A stretch of DNA of 64,000 nt from the IMG/VR virus record IMGVR_UViG_3300042564_002458, positions 1 through 64,000 of that record. One strand, given 5' to 3'. Positions 822 through 56,253 of the stretch are shown here, in pieces. The translations under genes were made by a program, and so were the position numbers. Position 1 is the first letter of the stretch; each line of letters opens with the position of its first letter. A model generated the notes under the pieces. That model worked only from the letters and a program-made list of their open reading frames with translations. It was not told where the DNA came from and made no database searches. Origin of the DNA: a virus.

Positions 822-920
822 AGAATTGTTGTAAACCCTGAGTAATCAGGACAGAAGTAAAGAGAAAAGTGTTCAAGACGCGGTTATCGTATACCGCCAG
901 CTCCACCATAAAGGGATTAC

Positions 921-1082
921 ATGAATTACATTGACAATACTATAGTGCTTGAAAACGGCAGAACAGTACATTACACAAAAGATGTATCTAAAATGTCGCT
1001 TAAAGAAGCTAATAAAATGTTAGCCACTATTAGAAAGTCTCTTTATGATGGGGCTGAAAGGATTCGATTGGGCAACAAGTAA
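921..1082 (+). CDS. Small ORF inside the tmRNA intervening segment (53 aa)
   Basis: An ATG at 921, 7 nt after AGGG, opens a 53-codon frame that fills the segment between the two tmRNA pieces and runs 33 nt into the coding piece, stopping at TAA 1080-1082. The peptide starts MNYIDNTIVLENGRTV and is hydrophilic and charged; nothing is recognised. It could be a real gene or a by-chance frame in the spacer. Confidence 0.4.
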   Translation: MNYIDNTIVLENGRTVHYTKDVSKMSLKEANKMLATIRKSLYDGAERIRLGNK

Positions 1083-1134
1083 CGGAATGGACAACTCGTC
1101 AGCGATAGACGTAAAAACTAAACAACCAATAAAT

Positions 1135-1167
1135 GCTAACGATGAAAATTGGGCATTAGCCGCTTGA
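1135..1167 (+). other. tmRNA proteolysis-tag reading frame ANDENWALAA
   Basis: GCT AAC GAT GAA AAT TGG GCA TTA GCC GCT TGA encodes ANDENWALAA. The E. coli tag frame is ANDENYALAA, so one residue differs and the ALAA degron recognised by ClpXP-type proteases is kept. An A-rich stretch precedes the resume codon. Confidence 0.92.
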
Positions 1168-1210
1168 AAAAGTTGCTTAGGGTAGGAAATACCTCGTAAC
1201 AGAAAATACC

Positions 1211-1238
1211 AATAGGGACTTTCGGGTCCCTATTTTAT
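1211..1238 (+). terminator. Rho-independent terminator of the tmRNA gene
   Basis: The stem ATAGGGAC/GTCCCTAT closes a TTTCGG loop and is followed by TTTTATTA. Confidence 0.85.
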
Positions 1239-10428: not shown

Positions 10429-11229
10429 TTATCTACATTTATCTCTTTTAGATTGAGTTAACTTACCAAAATCAACCTTCCATTCCCCACCAGCGGGTAA
10501 TTCATTTGCATTTGATGGAAAAAAGTAAACAACTCCAGATAATTTCATAATTTCTGAAACTGGGACACGAAATTTAGTTAAATCATTACCCAAGTTAGGA
10601 TAAGGCGCTGTATGCGGGAATAACCATCCTGCTACGGATCCTGTGTTATTGTCAATTACTATTTTATAGTAGGCGTGTGGAACAATTACATTATTGCCAA
10701 TTTTTTTATTGGTTGCATTATAAATTCCCCCAACATAGATAACAAATGGTCTATTATATTGAACGACCCATCCTCGAATACTAGTTTCCAACAATTTCCA
10801 AATACCACGATTTAATGATCCTGCTTGTGGTATCATATTAGTCATTAAGAAACTTTCATATTCTACTTGTTGATCCCAACTTTGATCTCCATTTGGCACA
10901 GCATGACCCTTATCATACCCAGTACTCACATAATCGTTTGGTGTAGCACCATTAGCAACACTTTTATCAGCGACAAAAGCATCGCTTCTGACCACACAAC
11001 CAAGAGCATTTTGTGGATGTAAAGTATATGTAACATATTTTGGTAATTTTGATGTGGCATCATATCCAACAAAGTATCCTTGACGACAAATGGATTGAAC
11101 CCCAGAAGTTTGTGGGAATCCATATGGTGTATGTGCAATACAGTTTTGAACTGGTTCTGGGACACGTTGATTCCATGCAAATACGTTAGTTGACATCAAC
11201 ATTGTTAATATGATTAAATATTTTTTCAT
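10429..11229 (-). CDS. Secreted DNA/RNA non-specific endonuclease
   Basis: A signal peptide (MKKYLIILTMLMSTNVFA) is followed by a mature domain with YDKGHAVPNGD and MTNMIPQ, matching the DRGH...N active-site layout of the NucA/nuclease G superfamily (R replaced by K here). The His would be the general base and the Asn would bind Mg2+. Six Cys residues could form disulphides in the periplasm. It runs opposite to the neighbours and is convergent with the epimerase gene, with no terminator between. A role in degrading extracellular or incoming DNA is inference. Confidence 0.8.
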   Translation of the reverse strand: MKKYLIILTMLMSTNVFAWNQRVPEPVQNCIAHTPYGFPQTSGVQSICRQGYFVGYDATSKLPKYVTYTLHPQNALGCVVRSDAFVADKSVANGATPNDYVSTGYDKGHAVPNGDQSWDQQVEYESFLMTNMIPQAGSLNRGIWKLLETSIRGWVVQYNRPFVIYVGGIYNATNKKIGNNVIVPHAYYKIVIDNNTGSVAGWLFPHTAPYPNLGNDLTKFRVPVSEIMKLSGVVYFFPSNANELPAGGEWKVDFGKLTQSKRDKCR

Positions 11230-11733: not shown

Positions 11734-13479
11734 ATGACAATTCGTAGAGATGACAACAAATATACAAAATTATCTAAAGCTGAATATGATGGTCAGGCTA
11801 GAAATGGTGAGATTGTTATTGATTTAGATAATCATAGTGTATGGGTTGGTGATGAGAATGGATATTTATTACCTGTAGGTGGAGTAGGTAGTATTGGTGC
11901 TACTGGGCCAAAAGGATTTACTGGAAGTACTGGTGCTACTGGATTTACTGGAAGTACTGGTGCTACTGGAAGTGGTGCTACTGGAGTTACTGGTTCAACT
12001 GGGTTCATTGGATCAACTGGTGCTACTGGATTTACTGGATCAACTGGTGCTACTGGATTTACTGGATCAACAGGCGCAACTGGGTTTGATGGGGCCACTG
12101 GTGCTGGTGCTACTGGCGCTAGTGGTGCAACTGGTCTTCCTGGTGATCGTTTTTCAACTACTAGTAGTAATACACTTACAATATCAACTGGACTTCAGTC
12201 ATTTACTGCCGGAACTGGATTAGGTTATACACCCGCTCAAGATGTAATTATTGCATATGATTTGAGTAATCATATGATAGGTATGGTAGTATCGTATGAT
12301 TATGTAACAGGCGCCATGATAGTAGATGTTAATAACATTGTTGGCGAAGGGTCTTATTCATTATGGACTATTAATCTTAATGGTGCTGTTGGTATTGCTG
12401 GCGCTACTGGGTTTACTGGTGCTACTGGAAGTACTGGTGCTACTGGTTTCACAGGTTCAACTGGTTTCACAGGTTCAACTGGGTTTACCGGCGCTACTGG
12501 TGCTACTGGAAGTACAGGTGCTACTGGAAGTACAGGTGCCACTGGATTTACTGGTTCCACTGGATTTACTGGTTCCACTGGATTTACTGGTTCCACTGGA
12601 TTTACTGGCGCTACTGGAAGTACGGGTGCTACTGGATTTATAGGAAGTACGGGTGCTACTGGATTTACTGGTGCTACTGGATCAACTGGTGCTACTGGAT
12701 TTATAGGAAGTACGGGTGCTACTGGATTTATAGGAAGTACGGGTGCAGGCGCAACTGGTTCCACTGGTCTTACAGGGGCTACTGGTCCAGTCGTATTGGG
12801 TCTATATTATGGATCGTTCTTCTCCGATTCTGATACTACGTTAGTAGATGCCATGAATACTAATAGCACTGCTCCTATAGTGGTGGTGAGTACAGCGGGA
12901 TTCAGATCGGCAGGATATCTTAACATAGAATCAGAACTTATAAGATATACTGGAATTGTAGGTAATACATTTACCGGAATTACTCGTGGAGTATCAAGCA
13001 GTACTAAAGCAGCACATGATCCTGGTGCATCAATTGGATTTGCTCAAGATGGAGCCGCTGGAGTAGCAGAGATAGCGTTGATAGACATAACCCAATTAAG
13101 TAATGGAGTTACTTTAAATGATGCTACTGGACAAGTAACTATAGTAAATGCCGGTACTTATAATATCACTTTCAGTATACAAGCGGCTAACTTTGGAAAT
13201 GCATATGATGACGTAGCAGTTTGGATTGCTGTTGATGGAGTTAACGTACCTCAAACTGCTAGCTATGCCACTATTTTTCTACCACATGCTGGTAAACCTG
13301 GAACCGTTATCATAACCGTGACATTGTATTATGCATTCACTGCTGGTCAAGTATTAACTGTCAAGTGGTACACACGCCTTGGTACCAGTGCGTTAATCTC
13401 AATACCAAAAATTAGCACTACAGTACCAACATCACCAAGTATTATCTTGGCTGTCAGTCAAATAGCATTGGTTCCATAA
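11734..13479 (+). CDS. Collagen-like tail-fibre protein
   Basis: An N-terminal domain of about 50 residues ([19 protein letters not shown], then [17 protein letters not shown]) resembles the base of phage fibres. Two long Gly-X-Y tracts of [13 protein letters not shown] type (about residues 54-132 and 220-350) would form collagen-like triple helices. They flank a beta domain and are followed by a C-terminal globular domain with [15 protein letters not shown], which looks C1q/TNF-like. The 581-residue protein is probably a trimeric receptor-binding or decorating fibre. Confidence 0.85.
11893..12790 (+). repeat. Collagen-coding short tandem repeats
   Basis: Two blocks (about 11893-12150 and 12391-12790) of 9- and 18-bp units built on GGTGCTACTGGA and TTTACTGGA. 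They also create long antisense frames that are not genes. Confidence 0.9.
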
Positions 13480-28500: not shown

Positions 28501-28696
28501 ATTTAAGAAAATAGCAGATGATTGTGAGTTGTACATTGAGCCACAAAGTCAAAGTAGAATGTTAGAAGTAGAATTCTTTGGCGAACAAGTGGCTAAGAAA
28601 TGTTGCGAGATACTTGATGATAAACGTTTTGATAATGTTAGACCAAGTATGATAATTGATCAGGCAATGATTAAACAATTTTTTGAGATAAAATAA
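28490..28696 (+). CDS. Small conserved-type phage protein (68 aa)
   Basis: ECELYIE-like start (DDCELYIEPQSQSRMLEVEFF), then FGEQVAKKCCEIL. It overlaps the previous gene by 11 nt and is coupled to the bilin reductase gene by TAATG. Not recognised. Confidence 0.6.
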   Translation: MKSEFKKIADDCELYIEPQSQSRMLEVEFFGEQVAKKCCEILDDKRFDNVRPSMIIDQAMIKQFFEIK

Positions 28697-29376
28697 TGAG
28701 TAATGTTTGGGATACACTAATTAAAGTAGAACAATACTTTGAAAGTCAGTTTTATGCTACTGGTAGTATAATTGAAGAACCTGGAATGCATCGTTTTAAT
28801 CAATCAGGTTGGATCAATAAAGTTTGGGCAAGTAGCAGATATCGTAGAGCGCACATTGACGTTGTAGATGCCAGAGACACTAAAGGATTGTGGATGATGC
28901 ATTGTTGTGTTTTCCCACATTTACATAATCCTGCTCCTATCTTTGGATTTGATGTAGTCGCAGGTAAAAATAAAATTACAGGATGTTTTCATGATTTTAG
29001 TCCAGCCGGAGATGCAGAACATCCGCTAATAGATTGGTTTGCAAACGAATCTGGCAAATTAGAATGGAATAAGCCACGTCCATTACCTGAGTGGGCACAA
29101 CGTATATTTACTAAACATATGATTGCCGCTGGTAATGTAAGTGATCCTATAGAATTAGAACAAATATTAGTTATGTCTAGAAAACATCTAGATCATTATC
29201 TGAATGTCATAGATGAAACTAATAATACAGTAACTAGTACCAAAGATCATCAAAATTATTACGCACAAAATCAGAAACAAAACCCACATACACCTAAAGT
29301 AATGGTTAGTTTAGGGTTAAGTGAATCAGATGTAAAAGTTTTTGTACAGGATTGTTTGTTTCCAGAAATACTATAA
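28696..29376 (+). CDS. Ferredoxin-dependent bilin reductase (PcyA/PebS/PcyX family)
   Basis: The family blocks are present in order: RRAHIDVVDA, HCCVFPHLHNPAPIFGFDVVAG, FHDFSP and the C-terminal YYAQNQKQNPHTPKVMVSLG. His69 and Asp86 are 17 residues apart, as are His88 and Asp105 of PcyA. At 226 aa it is close to the phage-type enzymes. These use reduced ferredoxin to reduce biliverdin to phycobilins; which product forms cannot be read from sequence alone. Heme oxygenase, which makes biliverdin, is the next gene. Confidence 0.82.
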   Translation: MSNVWDTLIKVEQYFESQFYATGSIIEEPGMHRFNQSGWINKVWASSRYRRAHIDVVDARDTKGLWMMHCCVFPHLHNPAPIFGFDVVAGKNKITGCFHDFSPAGDAEHPLIDWFANESGKLEWNKPRPLPEWAQRIFTKHMIAAGNVSDPIELEQILVMSRKHLDHYLNVIDETNNTVTSTKDHQNYYAQNQKQNPHTPKVMVSLGLSESDVKVFVQDCLFPEIL

Positions 29377-29420
29377 TAAAGTATGGAAATTGATCACTAA
29401 AAAATTTTAAAGGTAAAACA

Positions 29421-29978
29421 ATGAGTATTTTAAGAGAACATACAAACGAAAAACATAGAGCGATAGAAAGTCATATATTTGTACAAATGATGATGAATGG
29501 TGAATTGTCTAAAGAACAACATGCCATGTATTTACAACAAATGTATCATGTTTATCGTGATATTGAATATTATGGTGAAATGGTTGGATTATTTCATGAT
29601 ATGCGTTCTATTAAAAGAACAGATGCCATTAAAGAAGATATTCATGAACTTGGATATAAAGTATTAAACTCTGATGAAATTTTTCCTAGTACACAAGCCT
29701 ATCGTGAACATATTTTAAATTTGTACTATGGTAAAAAAGGTGATCAGATTTTAGCTCATATTTATGTAAGACATATGGGTGATTTATATGGTGGTAAACT
29801 TATTGCTAGAAAAGTACCAGGATCAGGAAAGGTCTATCAATTTGAGAATAGTCAAGAATTGATTAAGACATTAGATGCAAAACTAACTATGAATATTCTT
29901 GATGAAGCTTTGTTGGCATTTGATATGAATGGTCATATGTTTGATGATATGTTAAAAAAGGTAAATGAAACAAAATGA
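29421..29978 (+). CDS. ho1: Heme oxygenase
   Basis: LREHTNEKHRAIES carries the proximal heme ligand His12, with Glu16 at the usual offset. GDLYGGKLIAR is the distal helix with the paired Gly. The 185-aa length suits the short bacterial and phage forms. The enzyme opens heme to biliverdin, CO and Fe2+. Together with the preceding reductase it forms a complete heme-to-phycobilin route. Confidence 0.88.
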   Translation: MSILREHTNEKHRAIESHIFVQMMMNGELSKEQHAMYLQQMYHVYRDIEYYGEMVGLFHDMRSIKRTDAIKEDIHELGYKVLNSDEIFPSTQAYREHILNLYYGKKGDQILAHIYVRHMGDLYGGKLIARKVPGSGKVYQFENSQELIKTLDAKLTMNILDEALLAFDMNGHMFDDMLKKVNETK

Positions 29979-33143: not shown

Positions 33144-33150
33144 ATTTAGT

Positions 33151-33204
33151 GTTGTTTTTATACAACAATAATTATTGACAATAAATCTATTATAGTTTAT
33201 AATA
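33151..33204 (+). promoter_or_regulatory. 18-bp palindrome plus sigma70-type promoter
   Basis: TGTTGT-TTTTAT-ACAACA (33151-33168), 7 bp, TTGACA (33176-33181), 17 bp, TATAAT (33199-33204). Confidence 0.85.
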
Positions 33205-33232
33205 GTTGTACAGTAAATAAAACGGAATGAAA

Positions 33233-33418
33233 ATGTCAGATAAAATTGATCGTAATGAATACGATATGTTATTTCCCTTAGAACAAGAATTCAAAACTTG
33301 GGTCAAACATCAAGAAGTTCGAGCCGAACTCAAAAAACGCTTAATGACTAGTTTGAGTGAAAACACTCGTAAATCTTCTAAAGAAGATTTTAGTCCATTT
33401 AATACTGTTAATAGTTAA
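33233..33418 (+). CDS. Small hydrophilic protein (61 aa), early gene
   Basis: Of two in-frame ATGs, that at 33233 is better placed after ACGGAA; 33227 is the alternative. The peptide is charged (FKTWVKHQEVRAELKKRLM) and not recognised. Confidence 0.6.
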   Translation: MSDKIDRNEYDMLFPLEQEFKTWVKHQEVRAELKKRLMTSLSENTRKSSKEDFSPFNTVNS

Positions 33419-33420
33419 TT

Positions 33421-33474
33421 TGTTGTTTTTATACAACAATAATTATTGACAATAAATCCATTTTGTGCTATAAT
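33421..33474 (+). promoter_or_regulatory. 18-bp palindrome plus sigma70-type promoter
   Basis: TGTTGT-TTTTAT-ACAACA (33421-33438), identical to the copy at 33151; TTGACA 33446-33451; TATAAT 33469-33474. Confidence 0.85.
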
Positions 33475-33509
33475 ATATACATACAATTGAATAATACAAG
33501 GATCTACAA

Positions 33510-33851: not shown

Positions 33852-33863
33852 TATAGTATTGTG

Positions 33864-33917
33864 TGTTGTAAAAATACAACAGTATTAATTGACAACAAAT
33901 CCATATTCCTGTATAAT
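33864..33917 (+). promoter_or_regulatory. 18-bp palindrome plus sigma70-type promoter
   Basis: TGTTGT-AAAAAT-ACAACA (33864-33881), 7 bp, TTGACA (33889-33894), 17 bp, TATAAT (33912-33917). Confidence 0.85.
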
Positions 33918-33949
33918 ATACACATACACTGATAAAAAGGAAGTAAAAA

Positions 33950-34186
33950 ATGAATCCAAATTTTCTCAAAGCCCTGACTGAGCCTACGGTTTTTGTCGTA
34001 AGTATGAAATATACATTAGACGGTCAGGATATTGATGATGTTGATGCCGATCAAGTGGCAGAAATGGTTCGTGGCGTTTTCTCTACTGAGAAAGCCGCAT
34101 TGGATTTTGTCAAGACTAAGAATAAAGAATATAAGGGACAAGATGATGTTCATTTCACCGTTCGTATGCACTTTATTCAAGACTAA
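33950..34186 (+). CDS. Small protein (78 aa), early gene
   Basis: Acidic centre DGQDIDDVDADQVAEMVRGV; ends FTVRMHFIQD. AAAGGAAG precedes the ATG. Not recognised. Confidence 0.6.
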   Translation: MNPNFLKALTEPTVFVVSMKYTLDGQDIDDVDADQVAEMVRGVFSTEKAALDFVKTKNKEYKGQDDVHFTVRMHFIQD

Positions 34187-34188
34187 TT

Positions 34189-34242
34189 TGTTGTTTAAAT
34201 ACAACAGTATTAATTGACAACAAATCCATATTCCTGTATAAT
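34189..34242 (+). promoter_or_regulatory. 18-bp palindrome plus sigma70-type promoter
   Basis: TGTTGT-TTAAAT-ACAACA (34189-34206), 7 bp, TTGACA (34214-34219), 17 bp, TATAAT (34237-34242). From the palindrome through the leader it is almost a copy of the preceding cassette. Confidence 0.85.
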
Positions 34243-34273
34243 ATACACATACACTGATGAAAAGGAAGTAAAT

Positions 34274-34543
34274 ATGAAAGTTGATTTAAGCCCACAATCT
34301 AATCGTTTTGTTGAGTCAATTCTAGTTGCCTGTCCGGCTGGTTTACGTGAACGTGCCACATATAAAAATATTCCCATTGAATATTTGCCACAAGTCCGTG
34401 CCTATTTCAAATCACTGGGTAAAAAAATTCATGTTCGTTTTCGCGGCCCACGTAATAACCCACTTGACCGCCGTTATCGTAATCAACGAATGCAAGATTG
34501 TGTCAAACAATTCGCTAATCGTTTCACGATTTATTTTAAATAA
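34274..34543 (+). CDS. Small basic phage protein (89 aa), early gene
   Basis: The ATG at 34274 follows AAAGGAAGT. The peptide is strongly basic (KKIHVRFRGPRNNPLDRRYR) with SPQSNRFVESILVACPAGLR before it; it could bind nucleic acid. A related protein is common in phages in my recollection. Confidence 0.65.
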   Translation: MKVDLSPQSNRFVESILVACPAGLRERATYKNIPIEYLPQVRAYFKSLGKKIHVRFRGPRNNPLDRRYRNQRMQDCVKQFANRFTIYFK

Positions 34544-54390: not shown

Positions 54391-56253
54391 ATGAGCAAAA
54401 ATGTTGTCATAGGCGTAGATTTGGGCACCACTAATAGTTGTGTATCCATTGTTGAAAACGGAAAATACAAAATCATTGAAAATAGCGAGGGTGGAAGAAC
54501 AACACCTAGTATTGTAGCATATTCGAACGATGAAATTCTAGTTGGCGCATCAGCCAAGAGACAATCCGTAACTAATCCCATAAATACAATTTATGCTGCC
54601 AAACGACTAATTGGTCGTAAATTCAAAGAACAGGCGGTTCAGAAAGACATTGACTTGATGCCATATAAAATCATTGAGTCAAAGAATGGCGATGCATGGG
54701 TATATGCCGCAGATAAAGAATTAGCACCACCTCAAATTAGTGCAGAAGTTCTTCGTAAAATGAAGAAGACTGCCGAAGATTATCTTGGTCATGAAGTCAC
54801 TCAGGCAGTTATAACAGTACCAGCCTACTTTAATGATAGTCAACGTCAAGCAACTAAAGATGCTGGTAAAATAGCTGGGCTTGAAGTTCTTCGTATTATC
54901 AATGAACCAACTGCTGCAGCGTTAGCATACGGTGTTGATAAACAAGATAAAAAAGATCGTAAAATTGCAGTATATGACTTGGGTGGTGGAACGTTTGATG
55001 TTTCAATTATAGAAATAGCCAATGTTGATGGAGATAAGCAAATTGAAGTTTTATCGACCAACGGAGATACATTCTTGGGCGGTGAAGATTTTGATCAACG
55101 ATTGATGGATTATTTAGTAGACGAATTCAAAAAAGATAGTGGAGTTGATCTTAAAAATGATATGTTGGCACTACAGAGATTAAAAGATTCTGCAGAACGA
55201 GCAAAGATTGAATTGTCAAGTTCACAACAAACTGCGGTTAATTTACCATATATTACCGCTGATAGTTCTGGCCCACGACACATGAATATTATTATTACTC
55301 GTTCTAAGTTGGAATCATTAGTAGAAGACTTAATCAAGCGTAGTATTGAACCATGTAAAATTGCTCTAAAAGATGCGGGAATGTCAACAAGTGACATAGA
55401 CGAGATAATTCTTGTTGGGGGGCAAACTCGTATGCCAAAAGTACAAGAGGCCGTAGAGAAATTATTTGGTAAAATTCCACGAAAAGATATTAATCCAGAT
55501 GAGGCTGTAGCCGCGGGCGCCGCAATTCAGGGTGCAGTATTATCAGGTGATCGCAATGATGTTCTATTACTTGATGTGACTCCACTATCACTTGGTATTG
55601 AAACAATGGGTGGTGTAATGACTAAATTAGTTCAAAAGAATACAACTATTCCAACCAAGGCAAGTCAAATATTCTCTACAGCAGAAGATAATCAATCGGC
55701 CGTTACTGTAAAAGTATTTCAGGGTGAACGTGAATTAGTTCAATACAATAAGTCATTAGGTGAGTTTAATTTGGAAGGAATTCCACCATCTCGTCGAGGT
55801 ATTCCACAAATTGAAGTTACATTTGATATTGACGCAAACGGAATCATGCATATCAAAGCTAGCGACAAAGGTACTGGTAAAGAAAATAAAATTACCATTA
55901 AATCAAATAGTGGATTGAGCGAAAGTGAAATTCAACAAATGGTTCAAGAAGCAGAAGACAATGCCGATTCTGATAAAAAGATGAAAGATTTAATTCTTAC
56001 AAGAAATCATGCTGAGTCAGTAATTCATGAATGTACAACAGATTTAAAAGATTTCGGAAATCAATTAAGTCAAGAAGAAAAAACTTCAATTGAATCTGTC
56101 ATTGAATCTATTAAAACTGTCATGACAGGTGAAGATAGTGAGTTGATTACTAGTGAAATAACAAAACTATATGAAGTTTCCAAACCGCTTAATGAGAAGA
56201 AAATGAAAAAACAGTCATCAGATGAATTAGATGATACTGTGGTAGATGTCTAA
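54391..56253 (+). CDS. dnaK: Hsp70 chaperone DnaK
   Basis: [15 protein letters not shown] (residues 5-19), [12 protein letters not shown] (about 195) and [13 protein letters not shown] (about 337) are the Hsp70 ATPase signatures. [16 protein letters not shown] opens the substrate-binding domain. At 620 aa it is full length (E. coli 638) and ends [10 protein letters not shown]. No dnaJ or grpE is seen in this window, so it presumably uses host co-chaperones. It could help fold large late proteins such as the fibres. Confidence 0.95.

Follow-up and report, generated by a model that had tools for sequence, protein, structure and literature searches.

A permuted two-piece tmRNA gene of a T4-superfamily phage probably carries a small protein gene in its intervening segment

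Introduction

Few bacterial RNAs have been studied as thoroughly as transfer-messenger RNA (tmRNA), whose circularly permuted form is regarded as a pair of RNA pieces flanking a disposable spacer. For isolate phages, the main-text passages of one report describe 53 two-piece structures, mostly aquatic and with T4-type phages included (PMC9004378). As in the locus studied here, the phages treated in those passages (Methylophilales phage Melnitz and Pelagibacter phage HTVC008M) carry the permuted gene in a T4-type genome and presumably rely on SmpB of the host; a glutamine riboswitch is reported there for Melnitz, unlike our locus, and those passages make no mention of a nested open reading frame (ORF). 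The intervening segment (IVS) of HTVC008M is short (49 nt) and has a closing helix, as in the type described below, and in the published phage tmRNAs that were checked the IVS is non-coding, whereas ours has an ORF. Bacterial permuted tmRNAs (RF01850, RF04321) resemble our locus in gene order, in the pairing of the acceptor and P2 strands, in the tag frame and in score. Their IVSs, however, were 42-55 nt in those examined and none was coding, in contrast to an IVS of 141 nt with an ORF and a T-loop of 8 nt here.

There are precedents for a second gene in tmRNA gene sequence that maturation discards. A recent tmRNA survey reported homing endonucleases encoded by group I introns and, for permuted IVSs, one with a tRNA-Ala and another with a repeat (PMC11915505). 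The introns self-splice and lie in the T-loop, and the tRNA-Ala is an RNA gene seen in a single sequence, whereas the phage class described here has many unrelated microproteins in a permuted IVS and no intron. Searches of the open literature brought up no description of protein-coding genes within the IVS of permuted tmRNAs. Here we analyze a stretch of 64,000 nt of viral DNA (positions 1 to 64,000 of IMG/VR record IMGVR_UViG_3300042564_002458; hereafter the window) and compare its tmRNA locus with those of other phages.

Results and Discussion

Identity and anatomy of the tmRNA gene

Two permuted tmRNA covariance models of Rfam matched the window above their curated cut-offs, each as a single hit across both halves of the gene and far above chance: RF01850 (beta_tmRNA), the best subtype and a betaproteobacterial one, at 86.0 bits (cut-off 84, E=1.7e-24), and RF04321 (tmRNA_permuted) at 78.7 bits (cut-off 47, E=2.1e-13). 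Along with a complete set of helices, these matches bear out the first-pass annotation, made from the sequence alone, of a circularly permuted two-piece tmRNA gene at 828-1238. The acceptor 3′ half precedes the 5′ half, and the boundaries originally read were exact to the base, with the acceptor and T-arm half running to CAGCTCCACCA at 908 and the GGGGCTG...GGATTCGA half beginning at 1050. The acceptor halves (898-908 with 1050-1056) pair at 7/7 positions with G3.U70 and the CCA present, and the inner P2 helix (UGUUCAA 870-876 with UUGGGCA 1068-1074) is likewise complete at 7/7. A possible outer P2 helix (GUUGU 828-832 with ACAAC 1091-1095) also joins the two pieces, and it is from this pairing that the 5′ end at 828 was placed. 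The tag frame was correctly read as ANDENWALAA (GCT AAC GAT GAA AAT TGG GCA TTA GCC GCT TGA), one residue apart from the ANDENYALAA to which it had been likened. Coordinates of all features are collected in Table 1.

Table 1. Features of the permuted tmRNA locus in the window and examples of ORFs found at the same site in other phages (a slash in a sequence marks the predicted RNase P cleavage site)
Feature	Position	Strand	Evidence
5′ piece (acceptor piece): P2 5′ strands, T-arm, acceptor 3′ strand, CCA	828..908	+	RF01850/RF04321; direct reading
Optional hairpin CCTGA-GTAA-TCAGG within P2 5′ strand	837..850	+	sequence comparison
P2 inner helix 5′ strand UGUUCAA, partner 1068-1074	870..876	+	7/7 pairs; covariation, 45 copies
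T-arm: stem GCGGU/ACCGC (strands), non-canonical 8-nt loop UAUCGUAU	880..897	+	comparison of 45 copies
Acceptor 3′ strand CAGCTCC + ACCA	898..908	+	7/7 pairs with 1050-1056
IVS, 141 nt, predicted excised; ends ...TGAT at RNase P site 1049/1050	909..1049	+	
IVS-closing helix, 5′ strand (UAAAGGGAUU), holds AAAGGG 910-915, partner 1036-1045	909..918	+	duplex energies
Nested ORF, 53 codons (MNYIDNTIVLENGRTVHYTKDVSKMSLKEANKMLATIRKSLYD/GAERIRLGNK)	921..1082	+	open frame, class comparison, AlphaFold2
IVS-closing helix, 3′ strand, encodes the last IVS codons of the ORF	1036..1045	+	duplex energies
3′ piece (coding piece): acceptor 5′ strand GGGGCUG 1050-1056, D-loop GGAUUCGA 1060-1067, P2 strands 1068-1074 and 1091-1095, tag region, 3′ helices; 3′ end (1205) approximate	1050..1205	+	Rfam; direct reading
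Tag reading frame: resume codon GCT, ANDENWALAA, stop TGA	1135..1167	+	translation; Rfam alignment
Intrinsic terminator hairpin AATAGGGAC-TTTCGG-GTCCCTATT + T tract	1211..1238	+	sequence; RF01850 3′ helix; stem scan
32-aa membrane peptide	IVS of L036 and others		
22-aa membrane peptide	IVS of L051		
41-aa membrane peptide	IVS of L078		
MNSLEEVGKW... ORF	IVS of L081		
Zinc-finger-like ORF	IVS of L170/L211		
62-aa ORF	IVS of L188/L213		
86-aa CxxCxxCC protein	IVS of L236		

For comparison, permuted tmRNA copies were collected from IMG/VR by DNA patterns and parsed by pairing rules. Across 45 distinct phage copies the acceptor, T and P2 helices covary: strands paired with their own partners at an average of 7.00/7 (acceptor), 5.00/5 (T-stem) and 6.96/7 (P2) positions, and worse with partners swapped in from other copies (5.91, 4.00 and 5.56, respectively); the own-partner values were reached in 0 of 10,000 permutations for each of the three helices. 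Two other assemblies (L013 and L014) have exactly the same sequence for the window copy, so it is not a read error. It is an additional member of the phage two-piece tmRNAs already published. The hairpin at 837-850 is common to a subset of phages (L020, L026, L030, L031, L032).

Two variants were noted elsewhere in the collection. One class of phage permuted tmRNA has a tag of 31 aa (ANASKGEVTVSAGKGIRFSARGSVKAETFAV), which is roughly three times as long as usual and lacks a terminal LAA (L009, L017, L028, L029, L032, L033, L035, L037, L041-L044). Separately, L029 has a decayed extra acceptor piece (1099-1190) about 400 nt upstream of its intact permuted tmRNA, and a small CDS separates the two.

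The phage, its host and the spread of the permuted form

The virus had been taken for a T4-type phage, and its DNA polymerase (PHROG_262, E=8e-196) places it in the T4 superfamily, with the jumbo phages Phosso, CBB and GAP32 as closest relatives of that protein; T4-type DNA ligase and exonuclease families agree with this placement. The full virus record is 120,921 bases and may be a fragment. We found no SmpB in the 121-kb record, so the SmpB of the host would be needed if the phage tmRNA acts in ribosome rescue.

The first-pass annotation further took the permutation as a pointer to a host lineage with two-piece tmRNA, or to acquisition from one, and this part was not supported. Permuted tmRNAs were present in cultured phages of Stenotrophomonas, Xanthomonas, Alcaligenes, Pelagibacter and Synechococcus elongatus, and the first two of these are gammaproteobacterial hosts whose own tmRNA is one-piece. 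Since the permuted form occurs in phages of one-piece-tmRNA hosts, it is no guide to a two-piece host, which argues against host guesses based on it; it looks inherited within phages. A recent capture of ssrA from a two-piece host would fit the beta_tmRNA subtype and the beta/gamma-like tag, but the closest relatives of the cassette are all viral contigs, and with the same form found in phages of one-piece hosts we consider such a capture very unlikely.

When the window cassette was searched against cultured phage DNA, only BUCT-ZZ01 was returned, and no tmRNA was marked for Rb1, QDWS595, QDWS359 or BUCT-ZZ01 in the annotation examined. At the level of records, permuted tmRNA genes were unmarked in the returned annotation of the cultured phages ON615601.1, PQ569993.1, OK149171.2 and ON331942.1. 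A scan of a genome collection gave one permuted tmRNA present as a second copy in Herbaspirillum, with a non-coding IVS, and one WOR-3 match without a recognizable second piece. The Herbaspirillum sp. SJZ106 copy (C1:414463-414701, 105 bits) lies about 47 kb from a sub-threshold tmRNA match (461714-461930) and is possibly prophage-borne, beside the host's own gene.

An unusual T-arm in the window copy

The T-stem of the window copy is fully paired (5/5), but its loop (UAUCGUAU) has 8 nt in place of the canonical 7, a length found only in this copy among the 45. A syntenic relative (L020) has the canonical T-arm GAGGG-UUCGAUU-CCCUC; the two cassettes are 94% identical overall and about 94-98% identical outside the T-arm. 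With default and relaxed settings, ARAGORN made no call of the window tmRNA, plausibly because of the 8-nt T-loop and a D-loop that is one base short; a minus-strand call under the relaxed setting was spurious.

These departures from consensus in the T-loop and D-loop, of which the 8-nt T-loop could weaken tmRNA function, raise the question of whether the window copy is a decaying or inhibitory tmRNA acting as a decoy. The canonical loop of L020 in an otherwise nearly identical cassette would agree with that reading, as would the TLD-only tmRNA of phage DS6A, which resembles a known tmRNA inhibitor (PMC4131195); the DS6A type itself was ruled out by the tag frame at 1135-1167. Yet the T-stem changes relative to L020 are compensated on both strands, so the stem has been kept under constraint, and the acceptor, P2, tag and terminator are intact. 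In addition, the same copy was found in three assemblies, and other phage copies tolerate unusual T-loops (GGCAGUA, UGCAAAU). On this balance a decoy seems to us rather improbable. The T-arm (880-897) resembles the outcome of one local replacement, by template switch or by recombination. Another phage tRNA was considered as donor and rejected, with no donor found and the sequence occurring only in the same phage.

The intervening segment and its open reading frame

Our preferred reading is that the window holds a phage permuted tmRNA gene whose IVS has been taken over to house a small protein gene, and we regard this as probable. The ORF begins at ATG 921, at +12 after the CCA, downstream of the Shine-Dalgarno-like AAAGGG (910-915), which is a partial Shine-Dalgarno sequence and is predicted to be paired within a 10-bp closing helix (909-918/1036-1045). 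Its first 43 codons lie inside the IVS, a codon boundary falls exactly at the predicted RNase P site, and the stop (TAA, 1080-1082) is within the second piece. In these features the window fits the nested-gene class that we propose below. The TGAT/GGG ending of the IVS is common to most phage copies.

Taken by itself, an IVS open over 43 codons has a p of about 0.02 under shuffling. The IVS is 97.9% identical to that of L020 (3 of 141 bases differ), compared with 70-78% for neighbouring genes, and the three substitutions that separate the ORF from this sole diverged relative are two synonymous changes and one A-to-V. A single-sequence AlphaFold2 model of the product gives a beta-hairpin and a helix (pLDDT 80), which had no significant Foldseek match in BFVD or PDB, and no homologue of the protein was found in phage records (tblastn), PHROGs or Pfam. 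The window ORF is thus a candidate coding sequence whose status derives mainly from the class to which it belongs, its own evidence being modest.

Small ORFs at the same site in other phages

Among 87 distinct phage IVSs, ORFs at the same exact site fell into 31 BLAST families that are mutually unrelated, about 29 of them credible; the L052 and L066 families are short frames without a Shine-Dalgarno sequence and are probably due to chance. The ATG is mostly 9-14 nt 3′ of the CCA. Counting distinct IVSs with an ATG 7-15 nt after the CCA, and bearing in mind that loci within one family are not independent, the frame stays open to the IVS end in 41 of 42 with a Shine-Dalgarno sequence vs 17 of 27 without; after shuffling, the share of trials with an open IVS ranged from 0.03 to 23% by family. 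Scans not conditioned on an ATG gave such an ORF in about 6 of 24 distinct IVSs. Substitutions at codon positions 1, 2 and 3 numbered 81, 40 and 109 (chi-square p=1.5e-7) over the 10 families with diverged members, a signal that is significant only when pooled over families; one family pair (L074/L081) gave 7, 1 and 14. Two analyses were set aside: grouping of IVSs by global identity, which merged unrelated spacers, and a Fisher combination of openness p-values, which is inflated because only open families enter and was replaced by the contrast between IVSs with and without a Shine-Dalgarno sequence.

Homology outside the tmRNA locus was found for two of the nested ORFs. The L082 ORF aligns at 41-56% identity with the C-terminus of the RB69 orf052c-like protein found in T4-type phages (PHROG_4098, E=1e-10), and the 86-aa ORF of L236 has a Pfam CxxCxxCC match above cut-off. 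Eight ORF-bearing loci were scored by Rfam as permuted tmRNAs across the ORF itself. The alternative of a conventional two-piece phage tmRNA, with a spacer that encodes no protein and a frame in the window that is open by accident, is in keeping with the bacterial IVSs examined, with the absence of a coding IVS among all six cultured phages with permuted tmRNA that were examined, and with the weak shuffling result for the window ORF alone. Against it stand the Shine-Dalgarno-linked openness, the codon-position bias, the outside homologues of two ORFs and the placement of the ATG mostly 9-14 nt after the CCA, and we therefore judge it quite unlikely. Two other IVSs (L015 3326-3415 and that of L066) are non-coding with T-arm-like hairpins (GAAGGTTCGAACCCTTC, GCTGGTTCGACTCCAGC) and are possibly tRNA remnants.

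The spacer of many uncultured phages, then, appears to be a site for small protein genes, of about 29 unrelated families. The nested-gene part looks new. Such genes would escape notice because annotation assumes that RNA genes encode no protein or, in the case of the window copy, fails to find the tmRNA. They offer a systematic route to phage microproteins, many of which resemble single-pass membrane peptides.

A helix closing the IVS and the ends of the ORFs

Nearly all IVSs, coding or not, are closed by a helix of about 8-13 bp that extends the acceptor stem. This helix covaries: the mean duplex energy with the own partner was -10.8 kcal/mol, vs -3.8 kcal/mol with the partners of other copies (0 of 20,000 permutations), and the preference also holds among ORF-bearing IVSs alone. 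In ORF-bearing IVSs this helix takes in the Shine-Dalgarno sequence and is completed by the last codons of the ORF. With the start of the ORF inside the processing helix, tmRNA maturation and translation should therefore compete.

We propose the following course for the window locus. A single transcript, ended at the 1211-1238 terminator, would comprise the acceptor piece, a mini-mRNA and the coding piece, and the acceptor halves and IVS ends would fold as one long helix. RNase P would cut at 1049/1050 and tRNA 3′-end nucleases after the CCA at 908, leaving a two-piece tmRNA joined by the acceptor and P2 helices that, with host SmpB, would free stalled ribosomes and append ANDENWALAA. Ribosomes may also start at ATG 921, ahead of processing or in its place, once the helix over the Shine-Dalgarno sequence opens, yielding the 53-residue protein. 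Each transcript would then face a possible choice of becoming tmRNA or making protein, which suggests one transcript with two exclusive fates and would tie translation of the message directly to production of the ribosome-rescue RNA.

The families differ in how their ORFs end. In 15 of the 31, a TGA stands immediately before the cleavage site (...TGAT/GGG); nine, the window included, read across it on a codon boundary (GAT/GGG; frame 0) with no earlier stop; four stop slightly earlier; and the other three stay open in a different frame, one of them probably by chance. The nine stopless families allow a reading in which the nested ORF acts as an inbuilt nonstop message: RNase P cleavage would remove the stop, the product would be tagged and destroyed by the phage's own tmRNA, and it would accumulate only if tmRNA maturation or trans-translation failed. 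There is a precedent in ArfA of Escherichia coli, which is regulated in this manner via a nonstop mRNA made by RNase III (PMC3989581). For the frame-0 class only, the likeness is that a nuclease cut at a hairpin would leave a stopless ORF subject to trans-translation; arfA is not homologous, and its nuclease is RNase III, vs the RNase P of the tmRNA precursor proposed here. The 15 families with a TGA before the site show that this reading is not general, and the comparison of frame 0 with the remaining frame is a small sample, so that we hold it to be unlikely. In a broader version, the excised segment would act as a slot for exchangeable mini-genes, their translation start locked by the processing helix, with maturation in frame 0 stripping the stop to give an ArfA-like sensor; this is speculative, and we would put it at a similarly low probability. 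If true, a frame-0 protein would survive only while the tmRNA system fails, as a sensor built into the tmRNA gene.

Other features of the phage genome

Elsewhere in the window, a ferredoxin-dependent bilin reductase (PF05996) adjoins a heme oxygenase (PF01126) at 28696-29978, phycobilin-type auxiliary genes in a jumbo-phage-like genome, and a full-length phage-encoded Hsp70/DnaK (PF00012, 848 bits) lies at 54391-56253. We also noted a DNA/RNA non-specific endonuclease (PF01223) with a signal-like N-terminus at 10429-11229 on the minus strand, and a long collagen-like protein of GATGSTG repeats at 11734-13479 on the plus strand. A repeated leader element precedes small genes, consisting of TTGACA, 17 nt and a TATAAT-like motif followed by ACACATACACTGA, in copies that are 72-87% alike (1916-2006, 2078-2174, 2537-2628, 33147-33485, 33863-33960 and 34189-34276). 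This element is probably a dispersed family of early promoters.
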